The notes under the pieces: model-generated
What the model saw: only the letters and a program-made list of their open reading frames with translations
Database searches by the model: none
Told to the model about the DNA's origin: nothing
Position numbers and translations under genes: made by a program
NCBI GenBank assembly: GCA_012517285.1
Contig: JAAYVG010000025.1
Location: forward strand, 1 to 40,938
DNA length: 40,938 bases
DNA from: Elusimicrobiota bacterium
GTDB taxonomy: Bacteria; Elusimicrobiota; Elusimicrobia; Elusimicrobiales; UBA9959
Direction: 5' to 3'
In this document: one piece after another, positions 4,997-33,025 of the stretch
Numbering within the stretch: the first letter of the stretch is position 1
Layout of the letters: every line of letters begins with the position of its first letter

Positions 4997-5217
4997 GACA
5001 GTGTTTGGAAATAAGGAAAATACCTTATTCACTGATTTGGTTTTGCTGATCACTGACCCTGCCTACGCCGAAGCGGCTTCGGCAGACCCGCCTGCTTTTA
5101 GGAACTATGGCGGATTATATGTGTTAAATTAATGCTGACTACAAGTCCTTAACACATTGCAGTGGGCGGGCAGGCAGGCACTGTCCACTGTCCACTGACC
5201 ACTGTCCACTATTTTGA
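4997..5217 (+). repeat. Compound repeat spacer with GC-rich palindrome
   Basis: The spacer holds three things. A perfect palindrome GCCGAAGC-G-GCTTCGGC lies at 5067-5083 within a CCTGCC/GGCAGG environment. A 9-bp stem, ATGTGTTAA (5119-5127) with TTAACACAT (5149-5157), follows. A run of CACTGTCC/CACTGACC words at about 5180-5212 ends at the ribosome binding site of the next gene. CCTGCC near 5059 and the G-rich GGCGGGCAGGCAGGC near 5165-5179 are complementary, so the whole can fold as one large branched hairpin. Confidence 0.7.
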
Positions 5218-5227
5218 TGGAGGTTTT

Positions 5228-8765: not shown

Positions 8766-9941
8766 TTATTTGATGATGTTTAGAAGAACAAAGTGAAGAT
8801 ATTTAGTTTCTCTCATACCAGCAATTATAGGATGATCCTTTGATTGAGTCCCTATATAAATATTAAAAGTTCTTCTCTGTGATTTAATAGCAGCTGTTTC
8901 AATTATTTCATTAAATATTTCATCAGATATATGCTGGGAGCAGGTTGAAAACGCAACATATCCGGCTGGTTTGACGGTTTTTAGTGCTGATTTTAACATT
9001 TTTATATAAAGTCTTTTTGCATCATTCAAATGCTTTTTATTATGAACAAGATTTGGTGGATCTAAAAGTATAAAATCAGGGTTATCTTTGAAATCATTAT
9101 CGGATAATCCATCCAGTACATTTAGGGCGTTTTCTTCCTTGAAAACAAGTGTTTCCTCAGATATTTTGTTGAGTTCCCTGTTAGTCTCAGCTGTTTCCAC
9201 TGCCTTTTTTGATGAGTCTATGCCTAAAACAAAATTAGCACCATTTTTTGCTGCAATTATTGAGAATGCCCCTGTATAACAGTATAGATCTAAAACCTTT
9301 TTATCTTTAAAATATGGAATTAAAAATTCTCTATTATCCCTCTGATCAAAATACCAACCTGTTTTCTGTGAGTTGATTATATCTATATTAAACATTGCTC
9401 CATTTTCTTCTATTATTATCCTTTCAGTCAGCTTTCCGATTATTTCTGTAGGTTCTATTGCAAGCCCTTCAAGTATCCTTGAGTGATGATTTCTGAGTAT
9501 AACAATAGCCTCAGGGTTGTATATCTCTTTTATACTTGCTATTATTTCTTTGATAGATTTTTCAACACCAGCTGAAAGTATCTGAACGGTTATAACTGAG
9601 TTATATTTATCTATGACAAGACCACCTATTCCATCGCTTTCACCGAAAAAAAACCTACCATTAACTATTCCTATGCTCTTTCTGTAATCAAACGCCTTGT
9701 TAAGGCAGTTGAGAAAAAAATGTTCATCCATATCCTCTTTGCCTTTTAGTAAAAGCCTGACAGATATGAGACTGTGTGGATTATAAAACCCAATTCCACA
9801 CTGAGTATCATCACTGTAAACAATCCTGCAAATCTCACCATTTTCAGCTGTAAAGTCATGTTTAGCTATTTCGTTGGAAAATATCCAGAGATGAGTATTA
9901 AGTCTTTCAATGTATCTTTCTTTAAGTTTTATTGTTTTCAT
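8766..9941 (-). CDS. Class I rRNA methyltransferase, RlmI-like
   Basis: A 391-residue SAM-dependent methyltransferase with an N-terminal PUA-like domain (residues 1-75, ending near YNPHSLISVRLL). An EEHRY-type middle region (FFGESDGIGGLVIDKY) follows, then a Rossmann domain with VLDLYCYTGAFSI and LDPPNLVHNK. A cysteine in FSTCSQHIS is the candidate catalytic residue for m5C. The family modifies 23S rRNA (C1962 in E. coli). The DPPN in place of the usual DPPS/A is a small variation. It lies downstream of the SAM hydrolase-like gene across a 325-bp repeat spacer. Confidence 0.87.
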   Translation of the reverse strand: MKTIKLKERYIERLNTHLWIFSNEIAKHDFTAENGEICRIVYSDDTQCGIGFYNPHSLISVRLLLKGKEDMDEHFFLNCLNKAFDYRKSIGIVNGRFFFGESDGIGGLVIDKYNSVITVQILSAGVEKSIKEIIASIKEIYNPEAIVILRNHHSRILEGLAIEPTEIIGKLTERIIIEENGAMFNIDIINSQKTGWYFDQRDNREFLIPYFKDKKVLDLYCYTGAFSIIAAKNGANFVLGIDSSKKAVETAETNRELNKISEETLVFKEENALNVLDGLSDNDFKDNPDFILLDPPNLVHNKKHLNDAKRLYIKMLKSALKTVKPAGYVAFSTCSQHISDEIFNEIIETAAIKSQRRTFNIYIGTQSKDHPIIAGMRETKYLHFVLLNIIK

Positions 9942-10266
9942 ATATTGTAAATCAGAAGTCAGAGGTCAGAAGACAGAGGTCAGAAAACAGATGTCAGAAA
10001 GCAGAGAACAGAAATCAGAAGTCAGAGGTCAGAATACAGAAATCAGAAAACAGAGGACAGACAAATAGGGAATTTCCTTAAATTCTGAGCTCTGACTTAA
10101 TCTTGATGTTTTACTAAACAACCAGATGACTAAATAACTAATTTGTCTGTCTTCATCTCGATAATTATCCGTTTTCATCTCGATGATTTCCTAAATAACT
10201 AACTTATCTGTCTTCATCTGATTTCTATCTGTTTACATCTTGATGAATCCGTCTACATCATGATGT
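9942..10266 (-). repeat. Long compound inverted-repeat spacer before the RlmI-like gene
   Basis: This 325-bp gap contains no gene. Read in the minus (coding) direction, it begins with 22-24-bp units of the form ATCAnnATGnAnACnGAT (about 10130-10265). It passes TTAGTTATTTAG words and ends with a run of TCTGACCTCTGTCTTCTGA words (about 9955-10065) that stops just before the methyltransferase start. The leading CAGATGAAGACAGA and trailing TCTGTCTTCTGA arms are complementary, so the transcript can fold into a long imperfect hairpin. Confidence 0.75.
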
Positions 10267-11048: not shown

Positions 11049-11630
11049 TTATTTCTCAGATGATGTTCCGCAGGCTGTGAGCGGTATGGACATCTTACAG
11101 AGGGGACAGTTATCAGGTGGGTAAAGCTCAAGCGGATATGATACAAGGCATCTTACTGGAACATTAAAAAATGGCAGTTCTCCTGTGGATCTATCAACTA
11201 TTGCGGCAACTCCAATAACCTTTGCCTTATAATTTCTGGCAAGCGATATCGCCTCCGCACACATCTTTCCTGTCGAAAAAACATCATCAACTATTAAAAC
11301 CTTTTCATTCTCAGCTATTTTAAAATTTCTCTTAAGCATCATAACACCATCTACTTTTTCGGTGAATATTGATCTTGCATTTTTAATCCTTGCTATTTCC
11401 TGTCCTATAACTATTATTGCAGGATTTGGCGAGATCACAACATCTATGTCCTGAGGAAATCTATCTGCCATCTCCTTTGCAATTTTTTGTGCTATATGAG
11501 GATACTGAAGTACCATAGATGTCTGTATATAGGTTTGTGAATGAAAACCTGATGGAAGTTTAAAGTGTCCGCTGACTATAGCGCCATGTTCCTGTAAAAT
11601 TCCTACTATATCAAATTTACTCTTTGGCAT
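11049..11630 (-). CDS. pyrE: Orotate phosphoribosyltransferase
   Basis: A 193-residue PRTase that makes OMP from orotate and PRPP in de novo pyrimidine synthesis. It has SGHFKLPSGFHSQTYIQ near the N terminus and the PRPP-binding VLIVDDVFSTGKMCAEAI near residues 113-130. The C terminus has PPDNCPLCKMSIPL, a CxxC found in a subgroup of PyrE proteins. The start is supported by AGGAGG nine bases upstream on the minus strand. It follows the AsmA-like gene after a 215-bp repeat spacer and immediately precedes the DUF62 gene. Confidence 0.92.
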   Translation of the reverse strand: MPKSKFDIVGILQEHGAIVSGHFKLPSGFHSQTYIQTSMVLQYPHIAQKIAKEMADRFPQDIDVVISPNPAIIVIGQEIARIKNARSIFTEKVDGVMMLKRNFKIAENEKVLIVDDVFSTGKMCAEAISLARNYKAKVIGVAAIVDRSTGELPFFNVPVRCLVSYPLELYPPDNCPLCKMSIPLTACGTSSEK

Positions 11631-11640
11631 ATCTCCTCCT

Positions 11641-11841
11641 GTTAAACAAAAGACAGATGACAGAAAACAGATATCAGAAGACAGATGTCAGAAGACAGAT
11701 GTCAGATTTTAAAAGAATTTCTTATTTATCTGATATCTGTTTTAATCCTGACTTAATCTGTCTTCATCTGATGATTTATCCGTTTACATCTTGATTGAAT
11801 CTGTCTTCATCTTGATGATTAGATAACTTTTTTAGTGACCG
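11641..11841 (-). repeat. Compound inverted-repeat spacer before pyrE
   Basis: In the coding direction the spacer starts with three 22-23-bp units close to ATCATCAAGATGAAGACAGA (about 11750-11820). It ends with repeated GACATCTGTCTTCT words (about 11645-11710) that stop at the AGGAGG of pyrE. The two halves are mutually complementary. The architecture is the same as at 9942-10266 and 27745-27921. Confidence 0.75.
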
Positions 11842-16436: not shown

Positions 16437-16567
16437 TAGTGGTTAGAAGACAGAAGTCAGAAGACAGAAAAGGCAAAAAGCAATAATGATTAGTGAATAA
16501 GCTGTTTTCTTATTTTACTGGCTGCTGTTCTCTTAACACTGACCACTGATCACTGACCACTATTTTA
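16437..16567 (+). repeat. Inverted-repeat spacer between gap and the cDPG synthetase-like gene
   Basis: AATAGTGGTTAG right at the gap stop (16435-16446) is complementary at 11 of 12 positions to CTGACCACTATT (16553-16564), which abuts the ribosome binding site of the next gene. Between them are CAGAAGACAGAAGTCAG words on the left and CACTGACCACTGATCACTG on the right. Confidence 0.75.
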
Positions 16568-16578
16568 CAGGAGGAACA

Positions 16579-17925
16579 ATGACAAACAAAGATGGTAGAA
16601 AGAAAGTTATAATAATGGGAGCTGCAGGAAGAGATTTCCATAATTTTAACACCTATTACAGGGATAACGAAAATTATGAAGTCGTGGCTTTTACAGCCCA
16701 GCAGATTCCTAACATTGCAGGTAGAAAGTATCCTGCATCTTTAAGCGGTAAACTCTATCCTGCTGGAATACCAATATATGAAGAAGCAGAGTTAGCCGAT
16801 TTAATAAAAAAGTACAACGTTGATCAGGTTGTCTTTGCTTACAGTGATGTGAACTTTAACTATGTCATGGAAAAGGGTTCCATTGCACTTGCTTGTGGAG
16901 CAGATTATGTATTGCTGAGCGGTGAGCACACAATGATAAAATCGACAAAGCCAGTCATATCCGTATGTGCGGTCAGAACAGGGTGTGGCAAAAGCCAGAC
17001 ATCAAGAAGGATTGCTGCAATTTTAAAAGAGATGGGCAAAAAGGTTGTTGTTATAAGACATCCTATGCCTTACGGCGATTTAGAAAAGCAGACATGGCAG
17101 AGATTTGCTTCGATACAGGACATGTTGGATCAGAAATGTACAATAGAAGAGATGGAAGAGTATGAACCACATATAAGTGAGGGACATATTGTTTATGCTG
17201 GTGTTGATTATGGGAAGATTTTGCATGAGGCAGAAAAAGAAGCTGATGTGATACTGTGGGATGGTGGTAACAATGATCTTCCTTTTTACAAACCTGATAT
17301 CCATATAGTTGTTACTGATCCACTGAGAGCAGGTCATGAGAATTTTTATCATCCAGGAGCAACCAACCTTAGAATGGCTGATGTTGTTGTCATAAACAAG
17401 GTTGATACTGCAAAACCTGAGGATGTAAAGAAGGTGAAGGACAGCATTAATGCAGTAAATCCTAACGCAAAGATAATTGAGGCAGAAAGTCCTGTTGTTA
17501 TCAATGGTGATGTCTCAAAGATAAAGGGCAAAAAAGTTCTTGTTGTTGAGGATGGTCCTACACTAACACACGGTGGAATGAAGTTTGGAGCAGCTTATGT
17601 TGCTGCAAAGAACAACGGAGCCGGCGAAATAATTGATCCAAGACCTTATGCTGTTGGTTCAATAAAGGGTGTTTTTGAAAAATATAACCATCTTGAAAGC
17701 ATACTCCCAGCTATGGGATATGGTGATGAACAGATGAAAGAGCTTAAAGAAACTATTGAGAAAATTCCTTGTGATTTGGTTCTCGTTGGAACTCCAATAG
17801 ATCTTGCTCTTCACCTCAAGTTCAACAAGCCTTCTTTAAGAGTATCATATTATCTTAAAGAAAAAACATCCCCGGGACTCAAAGAAATAGTTAATGATGT
17901 GATCTCAAGCAAGGTTGCAAGATAA
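16579..17925 (+). CDS. Cyclic 2,3-diphosphoglycerate synthetase-like P-loop protein
   Basis: A 448-residue protein. An N-terminal Rossmann-like part (KKVIIMGAAGRDFHNFN, residues 9-24) is followed by a P-loop VRTGCGKSQ (132-140), a DTBS/CobQ-like ATPase core with DVILWDGGNNDLPF, and INKVD near residue 270. This matches the family of the archaeal enzyme that cyclises 2,3-diphosphoglycerate with ATP, a compatible solute in some methanogens. Bacterial members are mostly uncharacterised and usually annotated only as GTPase or cDPG synthetase. The position between gap and pgk fits a phosphoglycerate-linked role, but cDPG production is not shown. AGGAGG supports the start. Confidence 0.75.
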   Translation: MTNKDGRKKVIIMGAAGRDFHNFNTYYRDNENYEVVAFTAQQIPNIAGRKYPASLSGKLYPAGIPIYEEAELADLIKKYNVDQVVFAYSDVNFNYVMEKGSIALACGADYVLLSGEHTMIKSTKPVISVCAVRTGCGKSQTSRRIAAILKEMGKKVVVIRHPMPYGDLEKQTWQRFASIQDMLDQKCTIEEMEEYEPHISEGHIVYAGVDYGKILHEAEKEADVILWDGGNNDLPFYKPDIHIVVTDPLRAGHENFYHPGATNLRMADVVVINKVDTAKPEDVKKVKDSINAVNPNAKIIEAESPVVINGDVSKIKGKKVLVVEDGPTLTHGGMKFGAAYVAAKNNGAGEIIDPRPYAVGSIKGVFEKYNHLESILPAMGYGDEQMKELKETIEKIPCDLVLVGTPIDLALHLKFNKPSLRVSYYLKEKTSPGLKEIVNDVISSKVAR

Positions 17926-19152: not shown

Positions 19153-19394
19153 ATAGTGGTTAGTGATCAGTTGGCAGTGGTCAGCAAAACAAAATAGTGG
19201 TCAGTGGATAGTGAAACAGTATACAGTAATCAGTGAGCAGTGCCTGCCTGCCGAAGATATATCAGCAAAGTGGCGAATAGCCACAGTCGTTTTGCTGATA
19301 TGTTTATCGTAGGCAGGGTCAGCAAAACCAATACAGTGGACAGTGAATAAGGTGTTTCCTTTTACTGTCCACTGACCACTGATCACTGTTTAAA
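19153..19394 (+). repeat. Inverted-repeat spacer between pgk and secG
   Basis: AGTGGTTAGTGATCAGT (19155-19171), just after pgk, is complementary at 14 of 17 positions to ACTGACCACTGATCACT (19371-19387), which ends at the secG ribosome binding site. The interior repeats AGTGG/CAGTG words and carries the GC-rich hairpin listed at 19243-19317. The whole spacer can fold as one long stem. Confidence 0.75.
19243..19317 (+). repeat. CCTGCCTGC-type nested hairpin
   Basis: Outer arms CCTGCCTGCCGA and TCGTAGGCAGG pair. Inside, TATCAGCAAA (19260-19269) pairs perfectly with TTTGCTGATA (19291-19300). The tip adds GTGGC (19270-19274) with GCCAC (19280-19284) around GAATA. It is related at its ends to the hairpins at 5057-5100 and 24334-24366, and is much more GC-rich than its surroundings. 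Confidence 0.7.
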
Positions 19395-19404
19395 TGGAGG
19401 TTTG

Positions 19405-19683
19405 ATGTATAATTTTTTTCTTGTTATTCATATAATAATATGTTTACTTTTAATAGTCTCAATACTTTTTTTTCAAACAAGCAAAGGTTCAGCACTGAGT
19501 ATGTTTGGGGGTGGTGGTGATTCACTTTTTTCCAGTCCAAGTGGAAGTAGCTTTGTAAAAAAATTTACAATGTGGCTTGCTCTTGCATTTGCAGTAAATT
19601 CTCTTGTTTTAACAATTCTTTCTCCAACAAGATATCGTTCTGTTCTTTATGATGCATCATCTACGGCTCCTGTAAAAAAGTAA
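19405..19683 (+). CDS. secG: Protein translocase subunit SecG
   Basis: A 92-residue protein with two membrane spans (about residues 2-24 and 52-74) and the glycine/serine-rich loop between them (QTSKGSALSMFGGGGDSLF). This is the SecG arrangement in the SecYEG channel. I use ATG 19405, four bases after GGAGG; a TTG at 19402 would be too close to it. The gene closes the gap-pgk run, as secG often does. Confidence 0.88.
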   Translation: MYNFFLVIHIIICLLLIVSILFFQTSKGSALSMFGGGGDSLFSSPSGSSFVKKFTMWLALAFAVNSLVLTILSPTRYRSVLYDASSTAPVKK

Positions 19684-22598: not shown

Positions 22599-22624
22599 CC
22601 GATTTATCCCTGAGTTTATAAATA

Positions 22625-22896
22625 GGGTTCACTGAAAAAGTCTAACGAAAGATAATTTTCCAAATGAATAGTTGTCTCTATTATAGCGTATTATTGCTTT
22701 AAAAGTGCACGATTTTTAAGGTAATGTTGCAAAAACCTTGCACTTTTTTTATCTTTCTTTTGACAATAAAGATAATGCTTTTCTACTACGGCTTCGTCAG
22801 AATTCGCTTACCCCGATATATCGGGGCTCGCTCATTTTTTCGCCTCATAACGAAAATCATTGCTTTATTGCTCAAATAGACTTTTTCAGTGAACCC
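22625..22896 (+). mobile_element. Complete MITE, copy with long second arm
   Basis: A 272-bp element bounded by GGGTTCACTGAAAAAGTC (22625-22642) and its inverted counterpart GACTTTTTCAGTGAACCC (22879-22896). TA stands on both sides, and TAAATA flanks both ends (22619-22624 and 22897-22902), a possible 6-bp target duplication. The first 118 bp (22625-22742) are, by eye, identical to the reverse complement of 30080-30197. The rest is unrelated to that copy. It contains CCCCGATATATCGGGG (22811-22826) inside a larger imperfect inverted repeat. There is no open frame of note. The spacer 22599-22978 is otherwise empty. Confidence 0.85.
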
Positions 22897-22978
22897 TAAA
22901 TAAAATCTGAAATAATTTAATCATTAAAAAAAATTGTAGAATTGTATTTAATAGTTGGAATATTACAGCAGAGGTCAT

Positions 22979-24316
22979 ATGTGTGGAATATTTGGTATAA
23001 CAAACAACAAAAATGCAAGCTTTTTGACATACATCGCTCTTTACTCGCTTCAACACAGGGGGCAGGAGTCCTGTGGTATTGCAAGTTTTTCTAATAATGG
23101 TTTTAAATATTACAATGGTATGGGGCTTGTTCAGGAAGTTTTTAATAAGGATATAATAAATGACTTGTCAGGAAATACTGCAGTTGGTCATGTTAGATAT
23201 TCAACCACTGGTTCATCGGTTATAACCAATGCTCAGCCACTTTTTTTTAACACAAAGTTTGGTGAGTTCGCTGTAGCTCACAACGGAAATATTGTGAATT
23301 CAGCAGAGTTAAAAGAAACACTCTCAAAGTCAGGCTCAATATTTCAAACCACCACAGATAGTGAGATAATAGCCCATCTTATATCAACCTCAAAGAGTGA
23401 TAATTTTATAGATGCACTTATTGAAAGTGTAAAAAAATTAAAGGGTGCATATTCATTTGTATTCCTTTATGAAAATTCTATAATAGCTGTTAGAGATCCA
23501 TGGGGCTTTCGTCCACTTGTAATTGGTAAAAATGGCGATTCTATTGCCTTTGCATCAGAGAGCTGTGCCCTTGATGGAACCGGATATGCCTTTACAAGTG
23601 AGGTTATGCCGGGTGAGATTGTTATTGCAAAGAATGGTGACATTAAAAGATTTATATATAAAAGTTTTGATAAATATTTCAGGTGTATATTTGAACAGGT
23701 TTATTTTGCAAGACCTGACTCAGTTGTGCTTGATAAAACAATATTTATGACAAGATATGAGATCGGTCGTAGCTTAGCTAAACAGTCAGTAGATTTGACT
23801 GCTGATATTGTAAGCGGAGTTCCAGACTCAGGCACAGCCTATGCACTTGGATTTTCTGAGCAATCTGGAATACCATATATGCCTGTTTTTATGAAAAATC
23901 ACTATGCACCAAGGTCTTTTCTCCAGCCACAGCAAACACTGAGGGAATTTATTGCAGATTTGAAGCTTTCACCAATAAAGGACACTATAAAGGGAAGGGA
24001 TATAATACTTGTTGATGATTCACTTGTAAGGGGCACGACTTCTAAAAAAATTATTTCAAAGCTTAGGGCATGTGGAGCAAAAAAAATTACATTTATTGTT
24101 GGTTCTCCACCAATAAAAGGCCCGTGCTGTTATGGAATTGATACTCCTGATGAACACGAGCTCATAGCAAACAATATGACTGTCAGTGAGATAGAAAAAT
24201 TTATAGGTGTTGATAAGCTTTGTTATCTTGATATGGAAAGTCTTGTAAATGCTTGTGGAAATGGGAATAAGAATTTTTGTAAGGCTTGTTTTGACAGGAA
24301 GTATCCTGTAAAGTAA
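22979..24316 (+). CDS. purF: Amidophosphoribosyltransferase
   Basis: A 445-residue enzyme for the first step of de novo purine synthesis (PRPP plus glutamine to phosphoribosylamine). The start at 22979 puts the nucleophile at Cys2 (MCGIFGITN), exposed once Met is removed, and GAGG precedes it; the frame also runs back to 22955. The glutaminase has GQESCGIASF and GHVRYSTTG. The PRTase has the PRPP loop ILVDDSLVRGTTSKK. Cysteines in YFRCIFEQ, GPCCYGID and the C-terminal FCKACFDRKYP fit the [4Fe-4S] Bacillus-type enzyme, which is oxygen-sensitive. purD follows. Confidence 0.94.
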   Translation: MCGIFGITNNKNASFLTYIALYSLQHRGQESCGIASFSNNGFKYYNGMGLVQEVFNKDIINDLSGNTAVGHVRYSTTGSSVITNAQPLFFNTKFGEFAVAHNGNIVNSAELKETLSKSGSIFQTTTDSEIIAHLISTSKSDNFIDALIESVKKLKGAYSFVFLYENSIIAVRDPWGFRPLVIGKNGDSIAFASESCALDGTGYAFTSEVMPGEIVIAKNGDIKRFIYKSFDKYFRCIFEQVYFARPDSVVLDKTIFMTRYEIGRSLAKQSVDLTADIVSGVPDSGTAYALGFSEQSGIPYMPVFMKNHYAPRSFLQPQQTLREFIADLKLSPIKDTIKGRDIILVDDSLVRGTTSKKIISKLRACGAKKITFIVGSPPIKGPCCYGIDTPDEHELIANNMTVSEIEKFIGVDKLCYLDMESLVNACGNGNKNFCKACFDRKYPVK

Positions 24317-24424
24317 GTAGGCAGTGATCAGTGCCTGCCTGCCGAAGCCGCTTCGGCGCAGGCAGGGTTAGCAAAAAAGAGATACATTATAAGCTGACCA
24401 TCGACTGCTGCACACGGCTCAATC
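24317..24424 (+). repeat. Repeat spacer between purF and purD with GC-rich hairpin
   Basis: GGCAGTGATCAGTGC leads into a strong hairpin at 24334-24366. There CCTGCCTGC pairs with GCAGGCAGG and CGAAGC with GCTTCG around one C, with a 2-nt bulge. AAGCTGACCATCGACTGCTGC follows towards the purD ribosome binding site, complementary to the left AGTGATCAGT words. It belongs to the same spacer family as 19153-19394. Confidence 0.7.
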
Positions 24425-24433
24425 GGAGGGAAT

Positions 24434-25684
24434 ATGAATGTTCTTGTTATAGGAAGTGGTGGAAGGGAACACGCAATATGTCTAAAATTAAAGGAAAGCA
24501 ATAATCTGAAATCTCTATATACAGTTCCTAAAAATTCAGTTTTTGAGAGATTTAGTAAAAATATTGATCTCTCACCAGATGATTTTGAAGGGATAAAAGA
24601 CCTATGTATAGCAGAAAAAATTGATCTTGTAGTAGTTGGCCCGGAGGATCCTCTCTCAGCTGGAATATCTGATTATCTTATATCAAAAGGCATAAATGTT
24701 TTTGGACCATGTCTTAAAGGAGCTGTTCTTGAATCATCAAAACAACTTGCAAAAGAATTTATGGACAGAAACTATATTCCGACGGCAAAGTTTAAAGTAT
24801 TCTATGATTTTAGATGTGCAAAAAAGTATATTGCTGAACTGCAAAAATTTCCTGTTGTTATAAAAGCTGATGGACTCTGTGCTGGTAAGGGAGTTAGAAT
24901 ATGCAATAACATTGATGAGGCAAATACTGCAATAGAAGATTTTATGGAAAAAAGGATTTTTAAGGGTTCAGGTATGAAGGTTATAGTGGAGGAGTGTCTT
25001 AAAGGGAAGGAATGTTCTGTCCTTGCTCTTGTGGATGGGAAAAGATATTTATTACTTCCTGTGGCTCGTGATCACAAACGTTTGAACGATGGCAATACTG
25101 GGCCTAATACTGGTGGCATGGGAGCAGTATGCCCTGTGGATCTAAGCACAAACGACATAAAAAAAATAGAGGAAGAAATAATAACAAATTTTATGAACGG
25201 TATAAGAAAAGAAAGGATAGACTATCGTGGTGTAATATACTTTGGTATTATGATGACAGAGGATGGCCCAAAGCTTTTGGAGTTTAACGTTAGATTTGGC
25301 GATCCTGAAACTCAGGCAATACTTCCTCTTGTAGAGGATGATCTCCTTGATATCTTTTATAAGGTCGCATCAGGGAAGCTTGATAGGGAAAAAATTAATC
25401 TCAAGAATAAATATTCCGTATGTGTAGTTTTATCAGCAAAGGGATACCCTCAAAATCCATTGAAGGGTGATGAAATATCTGGGCTTGATAGTATTGATAA
25501 GGATATAACTATTTTTTATTCAGGAATCAGAATTGAAAACGGAAGATATTTCACCAGCGGCGGAAGGGTTTTAAGCCTTGTCGGGCTTGGTGATAGCGTT
25601 GATGAAGCAAGAAGAAAGGTTTATAATAATATAAAAAAAATAAAATTTGAAGGTATGCACTTCAGAACTGATATAGGGCTGTGA
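24434..25684 (+). CDS. purD: Phosphoribosylamine-glycine ligase
   Basis: A 416-residue ATP-grasp enzyme, second step of purine synthesis. N-terminal NVLVIGSGGREHAICLKL, VVGPEDPLSAGISD, the ATP-grasp FPVVIKADGLCAGKGVRI and the metal-binding LEFNVRFGDPETQ are all present. GGAGGG precedes the ATG. It lies in the same direction as purF. One nt separates its stop from the antiporter gene. Confidence 0.95.
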   Translation: MNVLVIGSGGREHAICLKLKESNNLKSLYTVPKNSVFERFSKNIDLSPDDFEGIKDLCIAEKIDLVVVGPEDPLSAGISDYLISKGINVFGPCLKGAVLESSKQLAKEFMDRNYIPTAKFKVFYDFRCAKKYIAELQKFPVVIKADGLCAGKGVRICNNIDEANTAIEDFMEKRIFKGSGMKVIVEECLKGKECSVLALVDGKRYLLLPVARDHKRLNDGNTGPNTGGMGAVCPVDLSTNDIKKIEEEIITNFMNGIRKERIDYRGVIYFGIMMTEDGPKLLEFNVRFGDPETQAILPLVEDDLLDIFYKVASGKLDREKINLKNKYSVCVVLSAKGYPQNPLKGDEISGLDSIDKDITIFYSGIRIENGRYFTSGGRVLSLVGLGDSVDEARRKVYNNIKKIKFEGMHFRTDIGL

Positions 25685-25685
25685 T

Positions 25686-27317
25686 ATGCACTCACAAGGA
25701 TTATTAACAGATATAGCATTTTCTATCATAGGATGCGGGATAATCTCGCTGATAATGAAACTTATAAAGCAGCCTCTGATAATAGGATATGTCATCGCTG
25801 GTATTATACTTGGGCCTGCCATAGGCTTTGGTATCATAACAGATGAGGCCAACATAGAGATCATATCTGAGATAGGACTTATATTTTTGCTTTTTATCAT
25901 CGGACTTGAGATAAACCTGAGGGATATGATCTCCAACGGTAAAAATATAATTGTTCTTGCTTTTTCTCAGGTAATTATTGGGTCAATTGTCAGTTTTTTC
26001 TGTCTGAAATTTCTCATCCCTGTTAATCTTAGTTTTATTGAGCTTGTATATATAACATTTTGTCTTAATCTCACATCCACACTCATAGTTGTTAAAATTT
26101 TAAAGGATAAGTTTGAAACACAGACAATTGCTGCAAAGCTAACCATAGGAATACTTATATTTCAGGATTTTTTTGCAATTATATTTCTTGCATTTCAAAA
26201 AAATTTTTTAAATCCTGAGTATTCTCTACTTTTAAAATCCCTTGTATCAAGCCTTCTTTTGCTTGCAACCTCATTTGCTTTCTCAAAATATTTCCTTTCA
26301 AAAATTATACACAAATATTCAAGCAGTCTTGAATTTGTCATAATACTATCTATTGCATATTGCTTTCTTATTTCAACTCTGGCAAATGTTTTAGGACTTT
26401 CGAAAGAGATGGGAGCCCTTATAGCAGGTGTTTCAATAGCAAACTCGCCATACAGTGAGGAGCTGGTTGTAAGGATATCATCGATAAGGGATTTCTTTGT
26501 AACGCTCTTTTTCGTTTCTCTTGGCCTGAAACTACCTGTCGTTGGAGCAGAGTATTTAACTGTTTCAATGATACTTATAGTGATAATAGTTGTATCAAGG
26601 TTTATATCCATTCTTTTTTATTATAAGATATTAAAACTTGGCGTAAGACCATTGTTCATAACATCACTTAATCTGATACCTATAAGTGAATTCGGGCTTG
26701 TAATAACATCACTTGGAGTAAAATACTCCCACATCGGTGAAAATGTTGAGATCATTATTCTTATAACAATGATAATATCATCGCTCCTTTCCACATATAT
26801 AATAAACTATAATCACATCATATACTCATTTTTTTCAAAAATATTTTCTCTGAGCAACATTGATGAGAGATTCTCATCAGATGATGAAAAAACGGATATA
26901 CTGGTACTTGGCTACAACAAGCTTACCGCTGAAATAATAAAAACAATAAAAGAAAAATTTCCATCCATATCTGTGGAGGTAGCTGATTTCAATGCCTTAA
27001 ATTCTAAGGAATTGAATGTCATTGGTGTTAAGTGGACATATGTTGATCTCTCAAACTATGAGTCTTTAAAAAGGCTTGAGGGCCTTAAACCATCGCTTGT
27101 GATATCTATGATGTCAGATTTAATACTTAAAGGTATAAACACATATAATCTTATGCTCAATGCTACAAGCATTTTTCCTGAATCAGTTCCTGTTTCTGTT
27201 GCTGAAACATATGAAGAAGAGCAGAGGCTTAAATCAATAGGTGTAAGGGTTATCAACATAGCCACCGCATCTTCATCCATGTTGATTAAAGAGGTTGAAA
27301 AAATAATAAAAAAATAG
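25686..27317 (+). CDS. CPA2-family cation:proton antiporter with altered TrkA-N domain
   Basis: A 543-residue KefB/Na+/H+ exchanger-type protein. Twelve or so membrane spans fill residues 1-385, with the family's IIGYVIAGIILGP and EIGLIFLLFIIGLEINLRDM near the start and LIPISEFGLV in the second half. From residue 403 comes a TrkA-N/RCK-like Rossmann domain, but the glycine loop that should read GxGxxG is LGYNKLT (Gly409 only), so nucleotide binding is doubtful. It probably exchanges K+ or Na+ for protons across the inner membrane. It is tightly linked to purD, which seems a positional rather than functional link. Confidence 0.85.
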   Translation: MHSQGLLTDIAFSIIGCGIISLIMKLIKQPLIIGYVIAGIILGPAIGFGIITDEANIEIISEIGLIFLLFIIGLEINLRDMISNGKNIIVLAFSQVIIGSIVSFFCLKFLIPVNLSFIELVYITFCLNLTSTLIVVKILKDKFETQTIAAKLTIGILIFQDFFAIIFLAFQKNFLNPEYSLLLKSLVSSLLLLATSFAFSKYFLSKIIHKYSSSLEFVIILSIAYCFLISTLANVLGLSKEMGALIAGVSIANSPYSEELVVRISSIRDFFVTLFFVSLGLKLPVVGAEYLTVSMILIVIIVVSRFISILFYYKILKLGVRPLFITSLNLIPISEFGLVITSLGVKYSHIGENVEIIILITMIISSLLSTYIINYNHIIYSFFSKIFSLSNIDERFSSDDEKTDILVLGYNKLTAEIIKTIKEKFPSISVEVADFNALNSKELNVIGVKWTYVDLSNYESLKRLEGLKPSLVISMMSDLILKGINTYNLMLNATSIFPESVPVSVAETYEEEQRLKSIGVRVINIATASSSMLIKEVEKIIKK

Positions 27318-27355
27318 AAATCAATTTTCACAGGAGCTCTTATTAAATTTGGATA

Positions 27356-27364
27356 TGTTATAAT
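27356..27364 (+). promoter_or_regulatory. Promoter of the small membrane protein (leaderless)
   Basis: TGtTATAAT is a perfect extended -10; the -10 hexamer ends 8 nt before ATG 27373. There is no clear Shine-Dalgarno, so the transcript should start at or within a base or two of the ATG. Confidence 0.5.
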
Positions 27365-27372
27365 AGAAGTTG

Positions 27373-27684
27373 ATGAAAGATAAAGAAATACAGGTTATTG
27401 ACAGCAGCAAGGATGAAGAAAAGGATTATGTAGAGGCTGAGATTGTTTCTGATTATCACTCATATACGAGGAGTGAAAAAAAACCTTCTTTTTTTGAGAA
27501 AGTAAAATTAAAATTTGGTAAGACTCTGCTCTTTATATTACTTCCACTTGCTCTTGTTTTAATAGTTATAGGTGTTATTCTTTCAGCGACATTTATTGGA
27601 GCTGTAATAGGTATTCCACTTATACTCATAGGTATTGGGATAATATTTTTTGCCCTGAGGTTTGTCGGTTTTATTGTAAGATAA
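27373..27684 (+). CDS. Small membrane protein of unknown function
   Basis: 103 residues from ATG 27373 (a TTG at 27370 would add one). Residues 1-45 are charged and probably cytoplasmic (KDEEKDYVEAEIV, YTRSEKKPS). The rest is two hydrophobic spans, about 50-72 and 75-97, rich in Ile, Leu and Gly. I do not recognise the family. It stands alone, with its own predicted leaderless promoter, after the antiporter gene and before a repeat spacer. Membership in a small DUF of two-span proteins is possible but cannot be named. Confidence 0.6.
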   Translation: MKDKEIQVIDSSKDEEKDYVEAEIVSDYHSYTRSEKKPSFFEKVKLKFGKTLLFILLPLALVLIVIGVILSATFIGAVIGIPLILIGIGIIFFALRFVGFIVR

Positions 27685-27728
27685 AAAATATTATAATATT
27701 TTTAAGTGGTAGATTGGATAAACTGAAT

Positions 27729-27742
27729 TAGGGTTCACTGAA
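27729..27742 (+). repeat. Solo MITE end
   Basis: TAGGGTTCACTGAA matches the outer 14 bases of the MITE terminal repeat, but the sequence after it (GGCTAATTAG) is that of the compound spacer. No matching right end follows before the aminopeptidase gene. It is either the relic of an element or a chance short match. Confidence 0.4.
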
Positions 27743-27744
27743 GG

Positions 27745-27921
27745 CTAATTAGTTATTTAATCATCAGGATGTAAACAGATAGAAATCAGATGAAGACAGA
27801 TAAATTAGTTATCTGGTTATATCGTTGTTTGGTTATTTAGGAAGAGGCAGCAAGGCAGTTATTTAGTTATCTGTTTTCTGACATCTGACCTCTGTCTTCT
27901 GATTTCTGACAACTGTATTAC
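27745..27921 (+). repeat. Compound inverted-repeat spacer before the M18 aminopeptidase
   Basis: The left half has ATCATCAGGATGTAAACAGAT and CAGATGAAGACAGATAA, the 22-bp unit seen at 11750-11820. The middle has TTAGTTATCTGGTTAT and GTTATTTAGTTATCTG words. The right half is TCTGACATCTGACCTCTGTC followed by TTCTGATTTCTGAC, ending just before CTGGAGG. Left GATGAAGACAGA and right TCTGTCTTCTGA are complementary. Confidence 0.75.
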
Positions 27922-27931
27922 TGGAGGCATT

Positions 27932-29356
27932 ATGGAAACAAAAGAAAAAAAAGATAAAAAGACTGATATAAGCTATCAGAGAAAAAATGGATGGGAGCTT
28001 ATAGATGATAAAGATAAAAAAAACATAGACGGTTTTTCATATGATTATATGGAATTCCTTTCTAAATCAAAGATAGAGAGGGAATTTCATGATAACTCTG
28101 TTGAGCTTTTAAAATCAGCAGGTTTTAAAGAGATATCAGCATATAAAAGCCTAAAGGCTGGTGATAGAGTCTATGTCTCAAACTATGGTAAAACTCTTTT
28201 TGCTTTTGTCATAGGCAAAAATGATCTTACATCAGGTATGCATATCGTTGGAGCTCACATAGATTCTCCGAGGATTGATATAAAGCAAAATCCACTTTAT
28301 GAAAACACTGAAATAGCTTACTTTGATACACATTACTACGGTGGAATAAAAAAATATCAGTGGCTTACCATACCGCTTTCGCTCCACGGAGTTATTGTAA
28401 AGAAAAATGGTGAAAAAATTAAAATAAACATAGGTGATGATGATAGTGATCCTGTTTTTTGCATAACTGATCTGCTTCCTCATCTTGCTCAGAGTCAGAT
28501 GAAAAAAACTCTTTCTGAGGCTGTTGAGGGTGAAAACCTTGATATAATAGTAGGCTCAGTTCCTGTGAATGATAAGGATGCTAAAGAAAAGGTTAAACAG
28601 AATATATTAAATATTTTAAATGAAAAATATTCAATAACCGAAGAAGACTTTCTTTCAGCTGAGCTTGAAATAGTTCCTGCGGCAAGACCAAGAGAGGTTG
28701 GATTCGATAGATCAATGATACTTGCTTATGGCCACGATGACAAGGTTTGTGCATATACTGCATTAAAAGCTATGCTTGATGCTGATAAAATACCTGATTA
28801 TACATCCTGTCTTATACTTGCAGATAAAGAAGAAATTGGTTCTTACGGTGCTACTGGTATGGGTTCTAACTCATTTGAGAATGCTACCTCTGAGATACTA
28901 AACCTTTATTATGGCAGCTACAATGAGCTGAGTCTTAAAAGATTGTTGAAAAATTCATGGATGCTTTCTGCCGACGTTAATGCTGTCTTAGATCCGCTTT
29001 TCCCATCCGTATCGGAAAAGAAAAACAGTGCTCTTCTTAACTATGGCATATGTGTTACAAAATATACCGGTGCAAGGGGAAAGGGTGGAGCCTCTGATGC
29101 AAATGCTGAGTTTGTGGCTGAGGTTAGAAGAATATTTGATTCAAATAAAGTTGTATGGCAGACTGGAGAGTTGGGAAAGGTTGATGAAGGTGGCGGCGGA
29201 ACAATAGCTCATTATTTAGCAAGATACGGTATGCAGGTTGTTGATTGTGGAGTTGGTCTTATGTCAATGCATGCTCCTATGGAGATAGCATCAAAGTTGG
29301 ATATATATATGGCATACAAAGCATATCTTGCATTTTATAACGACAGAAGGAAATAA
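27932..29356 (+). CDS. M18-family aminopeptidase
   Basis: A 474-residue dinuclear zinc aminopeptidase (family M18, TET-type particles), cytoplasmic. Metal ligands are visible in GAHIDSPR (His109, Asp111), the DKEEIGSYGATG segment, SADVNAVLDP and the C-terminal GLMSMHAPMEIAS histidine. The lysine-rich N terminus is typical of this branch. TGGAGG supports the start. It follows a compound repeat spacer and is followed, after a short repeat, by a one-domain asparaginase; the pair may serve peptide and amino acid breakdown, which is inference. Confidence 0.9.
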   Translation: METKEKKDKKTDISYQRKNGWELIDDKDKKNIDGFSYDYMEFLSKSKIEREFHDNSVELLKSAGFKEISAYKSLKAGDRVYVSNYGKTLFAFVIGKNDLTSGMHIVGAHIDSPRIDIKQNPLYENTEIAYFDTHYYGGIKKYQWLTIPLSLHGVIVKKNGEKIKINIGDDDSDPVFCITDLLPHLAQSQMKKTLSEAVEGENLDIIVGSVPVNDKDAKEKVKQNILNILNEKYSITEEDFLSAELEIVPAARPREVGFDRSMILAYGHDDKVCAYTALKAMLDADKIPDYTSCLILADKEEIGSYGATGMGSNSFENATSEILNLYYGSYNELSLKRLLKNSWMLSADVNAVLDPLFPSVSEKKNSALLNYGICVTKYTGARGKGGASDANAEFVAEVRRIFDSNKVVWQTGELGKVDEGGGGTIAHYLARYGMQVVDCGVGLMSMHAPMEIASKLDIYMAYKAYLAFYNDRRK

Positions 29357-29404
29357 GCACTGTCTTCTGATATCGGTCTTCTGTCATCTGATTTCTGGTT
29401 AACT
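29357..29404 (+). repeat. Short TCTGATATCGG-type spacer repeat
   Basis: CACTGTCTTCTGATATCGG and TCTTCTGTCATCTGATTTCTGG words fill the gap between the M18 gene and the asparaginase-like gene, ending at CTGGAG. Only the right-hand arm of the compound spacer is present. Confidence 0.55.
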
Positions 29405-29413
29405 GGAGTTCTT

Positions 29414-29911
29414 ATGACCATAAAGATAATAGTTACTGGTGGAACATTTGATAAGGAATATAATGAAATAAAGGGTGAGCTTTTTTTTAGAGATACTCAT
29501 ATTAACGAGATGCTAACGCTTGGAAGATGCAGGGTTGAGTATAAAATAAAAAAGCTGATGATGATAGACAGCCTTTTTATGAAAAAGTCTCACAGGCTTG
29601 AAATTTTGAAAGAGTGTATGAACTCCCGAGAAAAAAATATAGTCATAACCCATGGCACAGATACAATGGTTGATACTGCAAAGGTTTTAGGTGAAAATGT
29701 TGAAAGCATAAAAAACAAAACCGTAGTCTTAACCGGTGCTATGATCCCATATAAATTTGGCTCATCCGATGGTATGTTTAACTTGGGCAGTGCTATATCC
29801 TTTGCTCAGGTTCTTCCACCCGGTATATATATAGCTATGAACGGCAGATATTTTAACTGGTACAATGTAATAAAGAACAGAAACAAAGGCGAGTTTGAAG
29901 AAGTAAAGTAA
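29414..29911 (+). CDS. Single-domain asparaginase-like protein
   Basis: 165 residues covering only the N-terminal domain of type I/II asparaginases. Catalytic motifs are TGGTFD with Thr11, Tyr16, and THGTDTMVDTA with Thr82-Asp83; TGAMIPYKFGSSDGMFNLG follows. The whole C-terminal domain, which helps bind the substrate in the classical dimer, is missing. No remnant of it is visible after the stop, where the sequence is AT-rich and then a MITE. Short stand-alone proteins of this type are known as asparaginase-domain proteins, so it may be a natural form rather than a broken gene. Activity is uncertain. Confidence 0.75.
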   Translation: MTIKIIVTGGTFDKEYNEIKGELFFRDTHINEMLTLGRCRVEYKIKKLMMIDSLFMKKSHRLEILKECMNSREKNIVITHGTDTMVDTAKVLGENVESIKNKTVVLTGAMIPYKFGSSDGMFNLGSAISFAQVLPPGIYIAMNGRYFNWYNVIKNRNKGEFEEVK

Positions 29912-29998
29912 TTTTTATTTATCTAATAACTCTTTAATTTTTTGTTTGTTCATTTCTTAATCATTGGATTAATTATAAAAATTAGATCGTTTATTATA

Positions 29999-30197
29999 GG
30001 GTTCACTGAAAAAGTCTAACGGTGGAGCTTTTTATAAATGAGAAATTATATAAAAAAGTTTTAAAAATTATATTAAAACTGCAAGGTTTTTGCAACATTA
30101 CCTTAAAAATCGTGCACTTTTAAAGCAATAATACGCTATAATAGAGACAACTATTCATTTGGAAAATTATCTTTCGTTAGACTTTTTCAGTGAACCC
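29999..30197 (+). mobile_element. Complete MITE, 199-bp copy
   Basis: Bounded by GGGTTCACTGAAAAAGTC (29999-30016) and GACTTTTTCAGTGAACCC (30180-30197), with TA on each side. The right arm 30080-30197 is the exact reverse complement, by eye, of 22625-22742 (118 bp). The left arm resembles instead the elements at 1-141 and 32983-33025. The core has TGCAAGGTTTTTGCA-like symmetry and CGTGCAC. No coding capacity. The spacer 29912-30334 contains otherwise only AT-rich DNA, a second MITE end and the alr promoter. Confidence 0.85.
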
Positions 30198-30226
30198 TAG
30201 ATAACAAATAATAATAAACTATAGCA

Positions 30227-30251
30227 CAAATAGACTTTTCAGTGTCCCTTA
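30227..30251 (+). repeat. Second, degenerate MITE end
   Basis: CAAATAGACTTTTCAGTGTCC, then CTTA, resembles the right end at 22874-22898 (CAAATAGACTTTTTCAGTGA). It differs by one missing T and a changed base. It stands 30 bp outside the intact element at 29999-30197, so it may be left from an older insertion at the same place. Confidence 0.55.
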
Positions 30252-30334: not shown

Positions 30335-31438
30335 ATGGATAGAATACTTAGGCCCAACTGGGTAGAGGTTAATTTATCAGATATTGAATCAAACCTTAGA
30401 AAAATAAGAAAAATTATTAATAATAAAAAAATAACTTTTGTTGTAAAGGCAAATGCCTATGGCCATGGCATAAGAGAGGTTTCAAAATTTGCCCAGTCAA
30501 ATAAACTCTGCGACTACTTTGGAGTTTCATCAATAGAAGAGGGAGTAATATTAAGGGAGAGTGGAATAAAACTTCCAATAATAATTTTAGGTAGTATTTA
30601 TCCGTTCAACAATTTCAAATATCTTTTTGATTATAAGCTCTCACCAACCATATCAAGCGTTACAGCAATGGATGAGATAATAAAATATTCAAAAAAAATA
30701 AATTCCAGAATAGGATTACACTTAAAGCTTGAAACAGGGATGAACAGGGTTGGTGTTGGTGAAAACTCACTTATCAAGATGGTTGATAAGGCTTTATCAT
30801 CCAAAAATGTTCTTATAGATGGTATATACTCTCATTTTTCTTCGGCAGACAATGACAGGGATTATACGCTGTGGCAGCTTGATAATTATAAAAGGGTTGT
30901 TGATAAAATAACAGGGATAAAATTCTTAAAACATATCGCAAATTCCTCAGGAACAGTGAATTTCTCTTCATCACATATGGATATGGTAAGGTGTGGGCTT
31001 GCAGCCTACGGCGATATGGATGGTTTTAAAGAAGCTCTCTCATGGAAAACAAAAATAGTTTTTTTGAAGTATGTTAAGAAAGGAAGCTATATAAGCTATT
31101 CAAGGACTTACAAGACCACAAGAAGAACAAGGGTTGCTACAATACCATTGGGGTATGGTGATGGATATATGAGATCGCTTTCAAACAAGGCATCTGTTAT
31201 TATAAATGGTAAAAGAGCCAAAATAATAGGGAATATAACTATGGATATGTGTATGGTTGATGTCAGCGACGTTGATGTAAAGATTGGTGATGAGGTTATT
31301 GTATCGGGGAGTAGTGGTGATGATTTTATATCTGTAAAAGAGATTGCTGCTAAGGCTGGAACAATACCTTATGAGATAACAACGCTGATAACAACAAGGG
31401 TCCCGAGGGTTTACATATACAAAGGGAAAAGACGATGA
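30335..31438 (+). CDS. alr: Alanine racemase
   Basis: A 367-residue fold-type III PLP enzyme making D-alanine for peptidoglycan. The PLP lysine is Lys38 in VVKANAYGHG. HLKLETGMNRVGV, YSHFSSAD, the catalytic tyrosine segment ISYSRTYKT and IPLGYGDGY, then GNITMDMCMVDV, complete the pattern. The gene is the first of a long unit and overlaps mlaE by 4 nt. No Shine-Dalgarno is seen; see the promoter entry. Confidence 0.95.
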   Translation: MDRILRPNWVEVNLSDIESNLRKIRKIINNKKITFVVKANAYGHGIREVSKFAQSNKLCDYFGVSSIEEGVILRESGIKLPIIILGSIYPFNNFKYLFDYKLSPTISSVTAMDEIIKYSKKINSRIGLHLKLETGMNRVGVGENSLIKMVDKALSSKNVLIDGIYSHFSSADNDRDYTLWQLDNYKRVVDKITGIKFLKHIANSSGTVNFSSSHMDMVRCGLAAYGDMDGFKEALSWKTKIVFLKYVKKGSYISYSRTYKTTRRTRVATIPLGYGDGYMRSLSNKASVIINGKRAKIIGNITMDMCMVDVSDVDVKIGDEVIVSGSSGDDFISVKEIAAKAGTIPYEITTLITTRVPRVYIYKGKRR

Positions 31439-32232
31439 GTTTTATTACAAGATTTATTTCAAAGATTGGTAAATCAACACTTGATATATCTGAACACCTT
31501 GGAAGAGCAACCTTTATGATAAAGGATGTGTTCTACTGGGCTTTTAAATCAAGATTGGAAGTGGATGAAATTTATAAACAAACGGTGAGAATAGGTGTTG
31601 ATTCCGTCGGTGTTGCATCACTTGTGAGCCTTTTTACAGGTATGGTTTTGGCACTTCAAACAGGTTATACATCTCAGAACCTCTTCAACGAGCCTTTGTA
31701 TGTTGGAACAGCTGTTGGTTTCTCGCTGGTTAAGGAACTCGCACCAGTTCTCACAGCAATAGTTGTTTGTGGAAGGGCTGGTTCCAGTGTTACAGCTGAG
31801 ATAGGAACTATGGCTGTTACCGAGCAGATAGATGCTCTCTATACTCTTGGAACAAATCCATCATCATATCTTTTGATACCGAGATACTTTGCATTTTTGA
31901 TTGCCCTGCCAGTTTTGACAGTTATTGCAAATATAATAGGTATATTTGGTGGTTTTGCAGTTGGTGTTGTAAGACTTGGTATATCATCAACTGTTTTTAT
32001 TGATGATATAATTGATTTTATGGAAGTTAAAAATTTTATGCATGGATTTATAAAAACATTTCTTTTTGCTTTTACAATAGCAACCGTTTCCTGTTATAAG
32101 GGGCTTTATACTGAGGGAGGTGCTGAGGGCGTAGGAAAATCGACAACAGAGTCGGTTGTGCTTTCAATGATACTTATACTTGTGATAGATTATTTTGCAA
32201 GCTCTTTTCTGGTGCTAATAGGAATAACTTGA
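31435..32232 (+). CDS. mlaE: MlaE-family lipid ABC transporter permease
   Basis: A 265-residue inner-membrane permease of the MlaE (DUF140) family with about five spans. Typical stretches are SLFTGMVLALQTGY, LVKELAPVLTAIVVCGRAGSS, AEIGTMAVTEQIDAL and the C-terminal GLYTEGGAEGVGKSTTESVV. With MlaF and MlaD it moves phospholipids between inner membrane and the periplasmic route to the outer membrane. It overlaps alr by 4 nt, and the mlaF gene begins at or just after its end. Confidence 0.94.
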   Translation: MSFITRFISKIGKSTLDISEHLGRATFMIKDVFYWAFKSRLEVDEIYKQTVRIGVDSVGVASLVSLFTGMVLALQTGYTSQNLFNEPLYVGTAVGFSLVKELAPVLTAIVVCGRAGSSVTAEIGTMAVTEQIDALYTLGTNPSSYLLIPRYFAFLIALPVLTVIANIIGIFGGFAVGVVRLGISSTVFIDDIIDFMEVKNFMHGFIKTFLFAFTIATVSCYKGLYTEGGAEGVGKSTTESVVLSMILILVIDYFASSFLVLIGIT

Positions 32233-32243
32233 TTGATAGATTT

Positions 32244-32993
32244 ATGATAGAGATAAAAAAATTAACAAAGATATATGATAATAAAAAAGTATTGAATAAT
32301 ATAAACGTTGATATAAAAACTGGTGAAATATTTACTGTTATGGGACCTTCTGGAACGGGGAAGTCGACTTTTATAAAATCAATCATAAGGCTTATAAAGC
32401 CTGAGAGTGGTGAGATAATAATAGATGGTAGGGATATATTAAAAGCAAAAAAACAGTTTGAAATACAAAGTATAAGACGTGATTTTGGTTATCTTTTTCA
32501 GGACTCAGCCCTTTTTGATTCTTTAAATGTATGGGAAAATGTTGCATTTGGACTCAAGTATCTCACCGATATCAAACCTGACAAGTATTTTGATGTTGCG
32601 AGGGAAAAATTGGAGCTTGTTGGTTTAAAGGATATAGAGTATAAAAAAATAAATGAACTTTCAGGTGGTATGAAAAAAAGGGTTGCACTTGCCCGTGCTA
32701 TAGCACACAACCCAAAGTATATACTTTACGATGAACCAACCACCGGGCTTGATCCTATAAGCTCTGAAAAAATAATGAATCTCATATCCGAGATGTCAGA
32801 AAAATTGGGGGTTACCTCAGTTGTGGTAACCCATGATGTTAAGCTGGCATTTACAATATCAACAAGGATTGGAATGCTTTTTGGAGGAAAATTTTTAGAT
32901 GTTAACACACCTGAGGGTATAAAAAATAGCAGCATAAAAGAGGTAAAGGAGTTTGTGGAGACTTCATTCATTGAGGTTAATAGGGGTCACTGA
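32244..32993 (+). CDS. mlaF: MlaF-family lipid ABC transporter ATPase
   Basis: A 249-residue ABC ATPase: Walker A GPSGTGKST (residues 34-42), signature ELSGGMKKRVALARA, Walker B YILYDEPTTGLDP, and VVTHD. I start at ATG 32244, where family homology begins (MIEIKKLTKIY); a TTG at 32229 overlapping the mlaE stop would add five residues. The last codons, GGT CAC TGA, lie inside a MITE terminal repeat (TAGGGGTCACTGA), so the native C terminus may have been replaced. Confidence 0.93.
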   Translation: MIEIKKLTKIYDNKKVLNNINVDIKTGEIFTVMGPSGTGKSTFIKSIIRLIKPESGEIIIDGRDILKAKKQFEIQSIRRDFGYLFQDSALFDSLNVWENVAFGLKYLTDIKPDKYFDVAREKLELVGLKDIEYKKINELSGGMKKRVALARAIAHNPKYILYDEPTTGLDPISSEKIMNLISEMSEKLGVTSVVVTHDVKLAFTISTRIGMLFGGKFLDVNTPEGIKNSSIKEVKEFVETSFIEVNRGH

Positions 32994-33025
32994 AAAAGTC
33001 TAACGGTGGAGTTTTTATAAATGAA
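32983..33025 (+). mobile_element. MITE arm fragment at the end of mlaF
   Basis: GGGGTCACTGAAAAAGTC at 32983-33000, then TAACGGTGGAG and TTTTTATAAATGA, follows the left arm of the 29999 element almost base for base and then stops. The right end is missing. It separates mlaF from mlaD and supplies the mlaF stop codon at 32991-32993. TA precedes it, as at the complete copies. Confidence 0.7.

Follow-up and report, generated by a model that had tools for sequence, protein, structure and literature searches.

Bacterial MITEs such as Nezha, the Correia elements and ERIC are short, gene-less and mostly intergenic sequences with terminal inverted repeats, which occur in many copies (PMC10969869). For TIMEs, which are derived from Tn3 elements, both hybrid miniature elements and the loss of direct repeats by recombination between copies have already been described (PMC4133298). 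In the present study we analysed a 40,938-bp stretch of the genome of an Elusimicrobiota bacterium (contig JAAYVG010000025.1 of assembly GCA_012517285.1; hereafter the window), in which two gene-less elements, at 22625-22896 and 29999-30197, share an arm. The initial annotation interpreted them as members of a recently active MITE family whose arms are exchanged like modules. The features of the window are collected in Table 1; sites elsewhere in the genome are given as contig:position.

The two elements have 20-base ends in common (GGGKTCACTGAAAAAGTCTA), which confirms that they carry the same terminal repeats. The genome searched was a fragmented draft (1,962,120 bases in 52 contigs), in the whole of which 112 ends with no more than three mismatches were detected (57 forward, 55 reverse). 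A reversed control pattern gave 0, which excludes chance; the list of copies is complete only for ends with ≤3 mismatches or for copies recovered by arm searches. The elements are 106–410 bp long, mostly 272–278 bp (type A) or about 250–350 bp (type C), i.e. below the limit of about 600 bp for MITEs, and each of the many copies is too short for a transposase gene. Perfect direct duplications of 6 or 7 bp border 20 of the 35 resolved copies, and four more have a duplication with one mismatch (24/35). These are TAnnTA-like (e.g. TAAATA, TACTTA, TATTTA, TAACCTA) and not the simple flanking TA recorded initially. The element at 22625 is bordered by TAAATA, but the one at 29999 lacks a duplication, as its flanks agree at only 3/6 positions. 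The end motif was found in 4 of 341 genomes of the phylum, namely this one and three of the same taxonomic family; the single sampled congener had 0 ends, and a literature search by the end motif matched no paper. The family consists of IS5-type MITEs that have undergone a species-limited burst, and the initial claim of a MITE family with recent movement is supported. We also observed arrays of heptad-like repeats (CAGAAGT CAGAGGT...; CTGTCCA CTGACCA...), several of them directly upstream of gene starts; MITEs often lie within TAACTAAATAAC tracts similar to these arrays.

Table 1. Coordinates of the elements, their parts and other repeats (positions in the window unless a contig is named)
Feature	Position	Strand
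Left part of a type-C element present in many copies, truncated where the contig ends (141-bp assembly overlap)	1-141	-
Target duplication TAAATA, left copy	22619-22624	+
Complete type-A MITE, 272 bp (left arm, hairpin centre, right arm)	22625-22896	+
Type-A left arm, 118 bp (20-base end, AT-rich segment, centre hairpin GTGCA...TTGCA)	22625-22742	+
Type-A right arm, 154 bp; long stem in predicted RNA	22743-22896	+
Palindrome CCCCGATATATCGGGG, in place of CAGACTACTTTGTAGTATG of most other type-A copies	22811-22826	.
Target duplication TAAATA, right copy	22897-22902	+
Left-left fusion of 199 bp with a left end on either side; flanked by TTATTATA / TAGATAAC, duplication absent	29999-30197	+
Left arm of presumably older type-C element	29999-30079	+
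Junction inside 12-bp word TGCAAGGTTTTT, common to type-C left arms and inverted type A	30079-30090	+
Centre and left arm of type A in inverted orientation; no mismatch to 22625-22742	30080-30197	-
TAGATA next to type-A end; fits TAnnTA target, without partner copy on left	30198-30203	+
Right-end relic of presumably older element, about 89% to right ends of C19:16042 and C40:18768	30205-30243	+
Truncated type-C left end, at 3' end of ORF 32229-32993	32983-33025	+
REP-like palindrome sites	5053-5085, 24339-24371; C3:28568, C44:21053, C31:4354, C50:23339	
Heptad-like repeat arrays	5181-5230, 9932-10084, 11626-11729, 16538-16581, 19364-19407, 27866-27934	

The complete type-A element is intergenic; the genes on either side encode a PLP-dependent decarboxylase and a purF-like amidotransferase. 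The type-A left arm begins GGGTTCACTGAAAAAGTCTAACGAAAG... (118 bp) and the right arm finishes ...TCTATTTGAGC (154 bp, as the 5'-to-3' end arm). The left arm is paired with this right arm, or with a deleted form of it, in 24 of the 25 copies with an assignable partner. These 24 comprise five deletion derivatives and 19 near-full copies, of which two are truncated by a contig end. The predicted fold of the complete 272-bp element (-89.5 kcal/mol; z -10 compared with shuffles) derives its strength largely from the inverted ends and the right-arm stem. One full-length type-A copy (C50:43862-44135) has no target duplication (0/6) and may have arisen when two dispersed copies recombined.

In nine paired copies and in a collapsed multi-copy element, the type-C left arm, GGGG(T/G)CACTGAAAAAG(T/C)CTAACGGTGGAG..., is accompanied by the right arm of its own type. 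An intact copy at C19:16042 pairs a left arm of this kind with a right arm different from that of the C44 copies. A REP-like palindrome, GCCTGCC...GAAGC(C/T)G(C/T)TTC...GGCAGGC, is present both alone between genes and inside type-C right arms, in both orientations and once doubled (C15:12333, C37:12731). Nested cases were detected elsewhere in the genome: the element at C3:28332 (TAAGTA duplication) is inserted in another element or repeat, and a type-C MITE at C35:29890-30480 carries a foreign insert of ~280 bp whose inverted ends are different (CTGAGGGTCACTAAGATA...) and which apparently represents a second MITE family.

Mosaic structure was tested in the 19 near-full A copies using 30 informative characters, with the palindrome block and one indel each treated as a single character. 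Neighbouring characters were more compatible than permuted ones in a PHI-type test (p 0.0008–0.021, or 0.002–0.02 with linked sites collapsed), and left-right incompatibility was above within-arm incompatibility (p 0.009). The candidates for exchange are CCCCGATATATCGGGG versus CAGACTACTTTGTAGTATG at the tip of the right-arm stem and, in type C, the REP-like palindrome in its two orientations. The five copies with CCCCGATATATCGGGG in place of CAGACTACTTTGTAGTATG are scattered over the tree (the four changes required are no improvement on shuffled labels), and near-identical palindromes are present at comparable sites of type-C copies. The divergence of the family is thus not purely tree-like, and some exchange or conversion of segments over time is likely to have occurred; this probably reflects gene conversion among copies, or repeated replacement of hairpins, and not wholesale arm swapping. 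A stronger version, in which the copies swap palindromic hairpin segments and recombine near the centre hairpin, and thus form a set of recombining stem-loop modules instead of a tree of copies, is put forward only tentatively, as we consider it rather doubtful. Gene conversion, as proposed initially, is thereby retained in a weaker form, in the mosaics among the 19 near-full copies and in the 16-bp palindrome found in five backgrounds, but for the 118-bp arm it is only an improbable rival explanation (see below). Should a complete genome bear out the mosaic signal, this family would offer a compact natural system in which to test gene conversion between short repeats at dispersed sites.

The identity between 22625-22742 and the reverse complement of 30080-30197, which had been read by eye, is exact (118/118; E 8.8e-57 in the whole genome), and in an ungapped search the match lengthens to 137 bp at 96%. 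Other copies with a full A-left arm are 87–98% identical, and C40:15381, on another contig, is identical over the remaining A-left part (77/77). The other arms of the two elements (154 bp at 22743-22896 and about 81 bp at 29999-30079) indeed show no relationship along most of their length. The arm at 29999-30079 is nearest to C44:20997 (89%), C21:21563 (89%) and C19:16047 (88%), and to the sequence at 32983 (95% over 43 bases). The two partial elements in the window with which it was initially matched do resemble it (59-141 at 85% and 32983-33024 at 95%), but 1-141 is a contig break and not a natural partial element.

The fusion copy lies in the intergenic region flanked by an asparaginase-like gene (29414-29911) and an alanine racemase gene (30335-31438). 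Read from left to right from 29999, the type-C left arm extends to AAAACTGCA and is followed by AGGTTTTTGCAACATTACC, which is inverted A, as far as the A end at 30197, and then by TAGATAACAAATAATAATAAACTATAGCACAAATAGACTTTTCAGTGTCCC. The latter is a right end of the kind seen at C19:16417, C40:18768, C17:14283 and C18:1156. This relic (30205-30243), overlooked in the initial annotation, can be aligned with C19:16042 (46/52), beginning one base past the A end and in the correct orientation. The word TGCAAGGTTTTT at the junction is the only internal one of at least 11 bases that C19:16042 and inverted A share in the same orientation. Among the classified copies, 29999-30197 is the only A/C join, and it joins two left arms.

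The fusion copy probably arose by insertion of an A element into an older element, followed by a deletion between 12-bp repeats. In the order of events that we infer, the right arm of an older type-C element would have been the target, at a TAGATA site, of a recent A element that closely resembled the 22625 copy and entered in inverted orientation. A deletion between two direct repeats of TGCAAGGTTTTT, one in the old left arm and the other in the new centre, would then have removed roughly 390 bp (estimated by comparison with C19:16042). As a result, the old left arm would be joined to the new left arm, and the old right end would be left stranded at 30205-30243. Such a deletion within a nested insertion would explain both the observed structure and the missing duplication. 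The fixed arm pairs, the position of the junction in TGCAAGGTTTTT and the relic, when set beside the type-C comparison copy C19:16042, argue for this origin, and so do the insertions into other elements or repeats at C3:28332 and C35:29890 and the lack of a duplication at 29999, set against the perfect ones of 20/35 copies. Against it stands the lack of a duplication of the outer, older element around 29999 and 30243 (TTATTATA / TTAGTTATTG), so the old left arm and the relic may derive from two different old elements. A clean duplication is also missing in about a third of the other copies; its absence at 29999 alone is therefore weak evidence. On this reading, the locus shows how an apparently modular element can arise by nested insertion and short-repeat deletion.

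The complete identity of the arm with a copy on the same contig, compared with the lower values for other full-arm copies, would also fit gene conversion or template switching, in which pairing between the centre hairpin of the old type-C element and the 22625 copy, at a distance of 7 kb, would have let a copy of the A left arm replace the old right half. The mosaic nature of the full A copies, which persists after linked sites are collapsed, and the excess of left-right over within-arm incompatibility point in the same direction. However, the identity stops at the terminal inverted repeat, as for an insertion, the right flank TAGATA is a standard insertion target, and the relic outside the element is not simply explained by a tract replacing the right half. 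Moreover, the match at C40:15381 means that a local donor is not needed. We therefore regard conversion as an unlikely origin of the fusion copy. The view expressed in the initial annotation, that modular exchange of arms creates mobile chimeras which then transpose, seems more doubtful still. It could draw on the two different right arms that accompany type-C left arms in intact copies (the C44 copies and C19:16042), on the CCCCGATATATCGGGG segment in its five backgrounds, and on the conflict between the trees of the A left and right arms. The AU test was rejected as proof of this conflict: the rejection was strong, but random column splits performed nearly equally (3/60 reached it), which makes it largely small-sample noise. 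In addition, the distances of the left and right arms of A copies are positively correlated (Mantel r 0.28, p 0.004), there is a single A/C fusion, and this has no target duplication. Since the A left arm otherwise keeps its own right arm (24/25) and the one exception has a simpler local origin, whole-arm exchange does not appear to be the normal behaviour of the family, each of whose two subfamilies, A and C, probably moves as a fixed left-right pair. Fixed left/right pairs with gradual divergence, which the initial annotation had set against arm exchange, were thus found for the most part: the pairs are largely fixed, but the mosaics show that divergence is not purely tree-like.

The draft genome is fragmented and 12 element ends coincide with contig ends, so the possibility that the fusion copy is a mis-join of two repeats was also considered. 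In each of three contig pairs (C12/C46, C45/C18 and C21/C43), the overlap lies inside an element and is exactly 141 bp long, which points to a k-mer length of 141 in the assembly. The identical tract within 29999-30197 is about 120 bp, i.e. shorter than 141 bp, with unique sequence on its flanks; repeats of this size are resolved by such an assembly, which makes an artefact very improbable. Insertion into an older element followed by deletion remains the preferred reading.

The MITE ends are shared with insertion sequences that carry an IS5 transposase; ISMae6-annotated and other IS5 elements were located by plasmid tblastn. An ISMae6-annotated element of a Microcystis plasmid (about 1.69 kb) has the end GGGTTTGCTGAAAAAGTC on the right (16/18 to the MITE end GGGTTCACTGAAAAAGTC), a slightly worn left end and TAATTA on both sides. 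In a Flavobacteriales MAG (WFNC), GGGTTCACTGAAAAAGTTTA (17/18 to the MITE end), with TATATA before it, lies about 350 bp ahead of an IS5 transposase frame. A 388-aa stretch of this frame scored 250.8 bits against NF033578 (IS5 family; cut-off 275), the gene being frameshifted and cut by the contig end. Target and duplication length also agree (TAATTA in Microcystis, TATATA at the Flavobacteriales left end, TAnnTA here); the flanks of a Persicobacter copy, TATTTA and TAAATA, are not identical. A TGCA...TTGCA inverted repeat is present just before the transposase start in the Persicobacter and Flavobacteriales elements, and TGCA words occur in the corresponding region of the Microcystis element. 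The MITE centre, GTGCA...TTGCAC, resembles this hairpin, and the MITE left arm plausibly corresponds to the left end of such an IS as far as the hairpin that precedes the transposase. Taken singly, the hairpins surpass shuffled sequences in folding by a modest margin only (z -1.0 for the Flavobacteriales segment, -0.2 for Persicobacter, -1.8 for type A and -2.8 for a typed type-C sequence).

The MITEs were presumably moved in trans by an ISMae6-type IS5 transposase. A transposase gene with the same ends, which the initial annotation had proposed to look for, was not found in the draft assembly, and no autonomous partner was detected there as a match to NF033578 or PF13751, although multi-copy contigs may be missing from it. 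Several other candidates were rejected. The IS4-like transposase at C6:62075, the only PF01609 match, has no matching ends within the flanks examined. An IS1182 origin is not borne out, as PF13751 matched nothing in the genome and GATTCCGCTGAAAAACCC is the sequence at the IS1182-like ends of relatives. Two viral-contig matches to the end motif fall within coding sequence and are due to chance, and plasmid blastn gave only weak matches, of which the one inspected (Persicobacter) showed no element. The Flavobacteriales MAG, which belongs to a different phylum, also contains a family of MITEs of 224 bp that share the GGGTTCACTGAAAAAGTCTA ends and have TAnnTA duplications of 6 bp, but whose interior is unrelated. 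Most of 26 same-family relatives carry a frame of 166–209 aa whose match to the IS5 transposase profile is confined to the N-terminal part (about positions 8-133); the one tested has a DUF772 domain. Such frames, of which none was found in this genome or in the congener, may be fragments of a transposase that became domesticated.

In their ends, TAnnTA target and TGCA...TTGCA repeat, the MITEs described here are like the ISMae6-type IS5 elements of Microcystis, other cyanobacteria and Persicobacter, but these are about 1.7 kb long and encode a transposase, whereas the MITEs are 106–410 bp long and gene-less. As an Elusimicrobiota family tied to such ends, with a species-limited burst, they are an addition to a known kind of element. 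Like bacterial MITEs in general, its members are short, gene-less, numerous and mostly intergenic, have terminal inverted repeats and were presumably moved in trans. The family differs from Nezha, the Correia elements and ERIC in being a sequence family of its own, with 6–7 bp duplications, two fixed hairpin-centred subfamilies and one left-left fusion. In contrast to TIMEs, which have Tn3-type ends, its ends are of the IS5 type, and while TIME mosaics have been shown to be mobile (PMC4133298), nothing indicates that the present fusion copy has ever moved as a unit.
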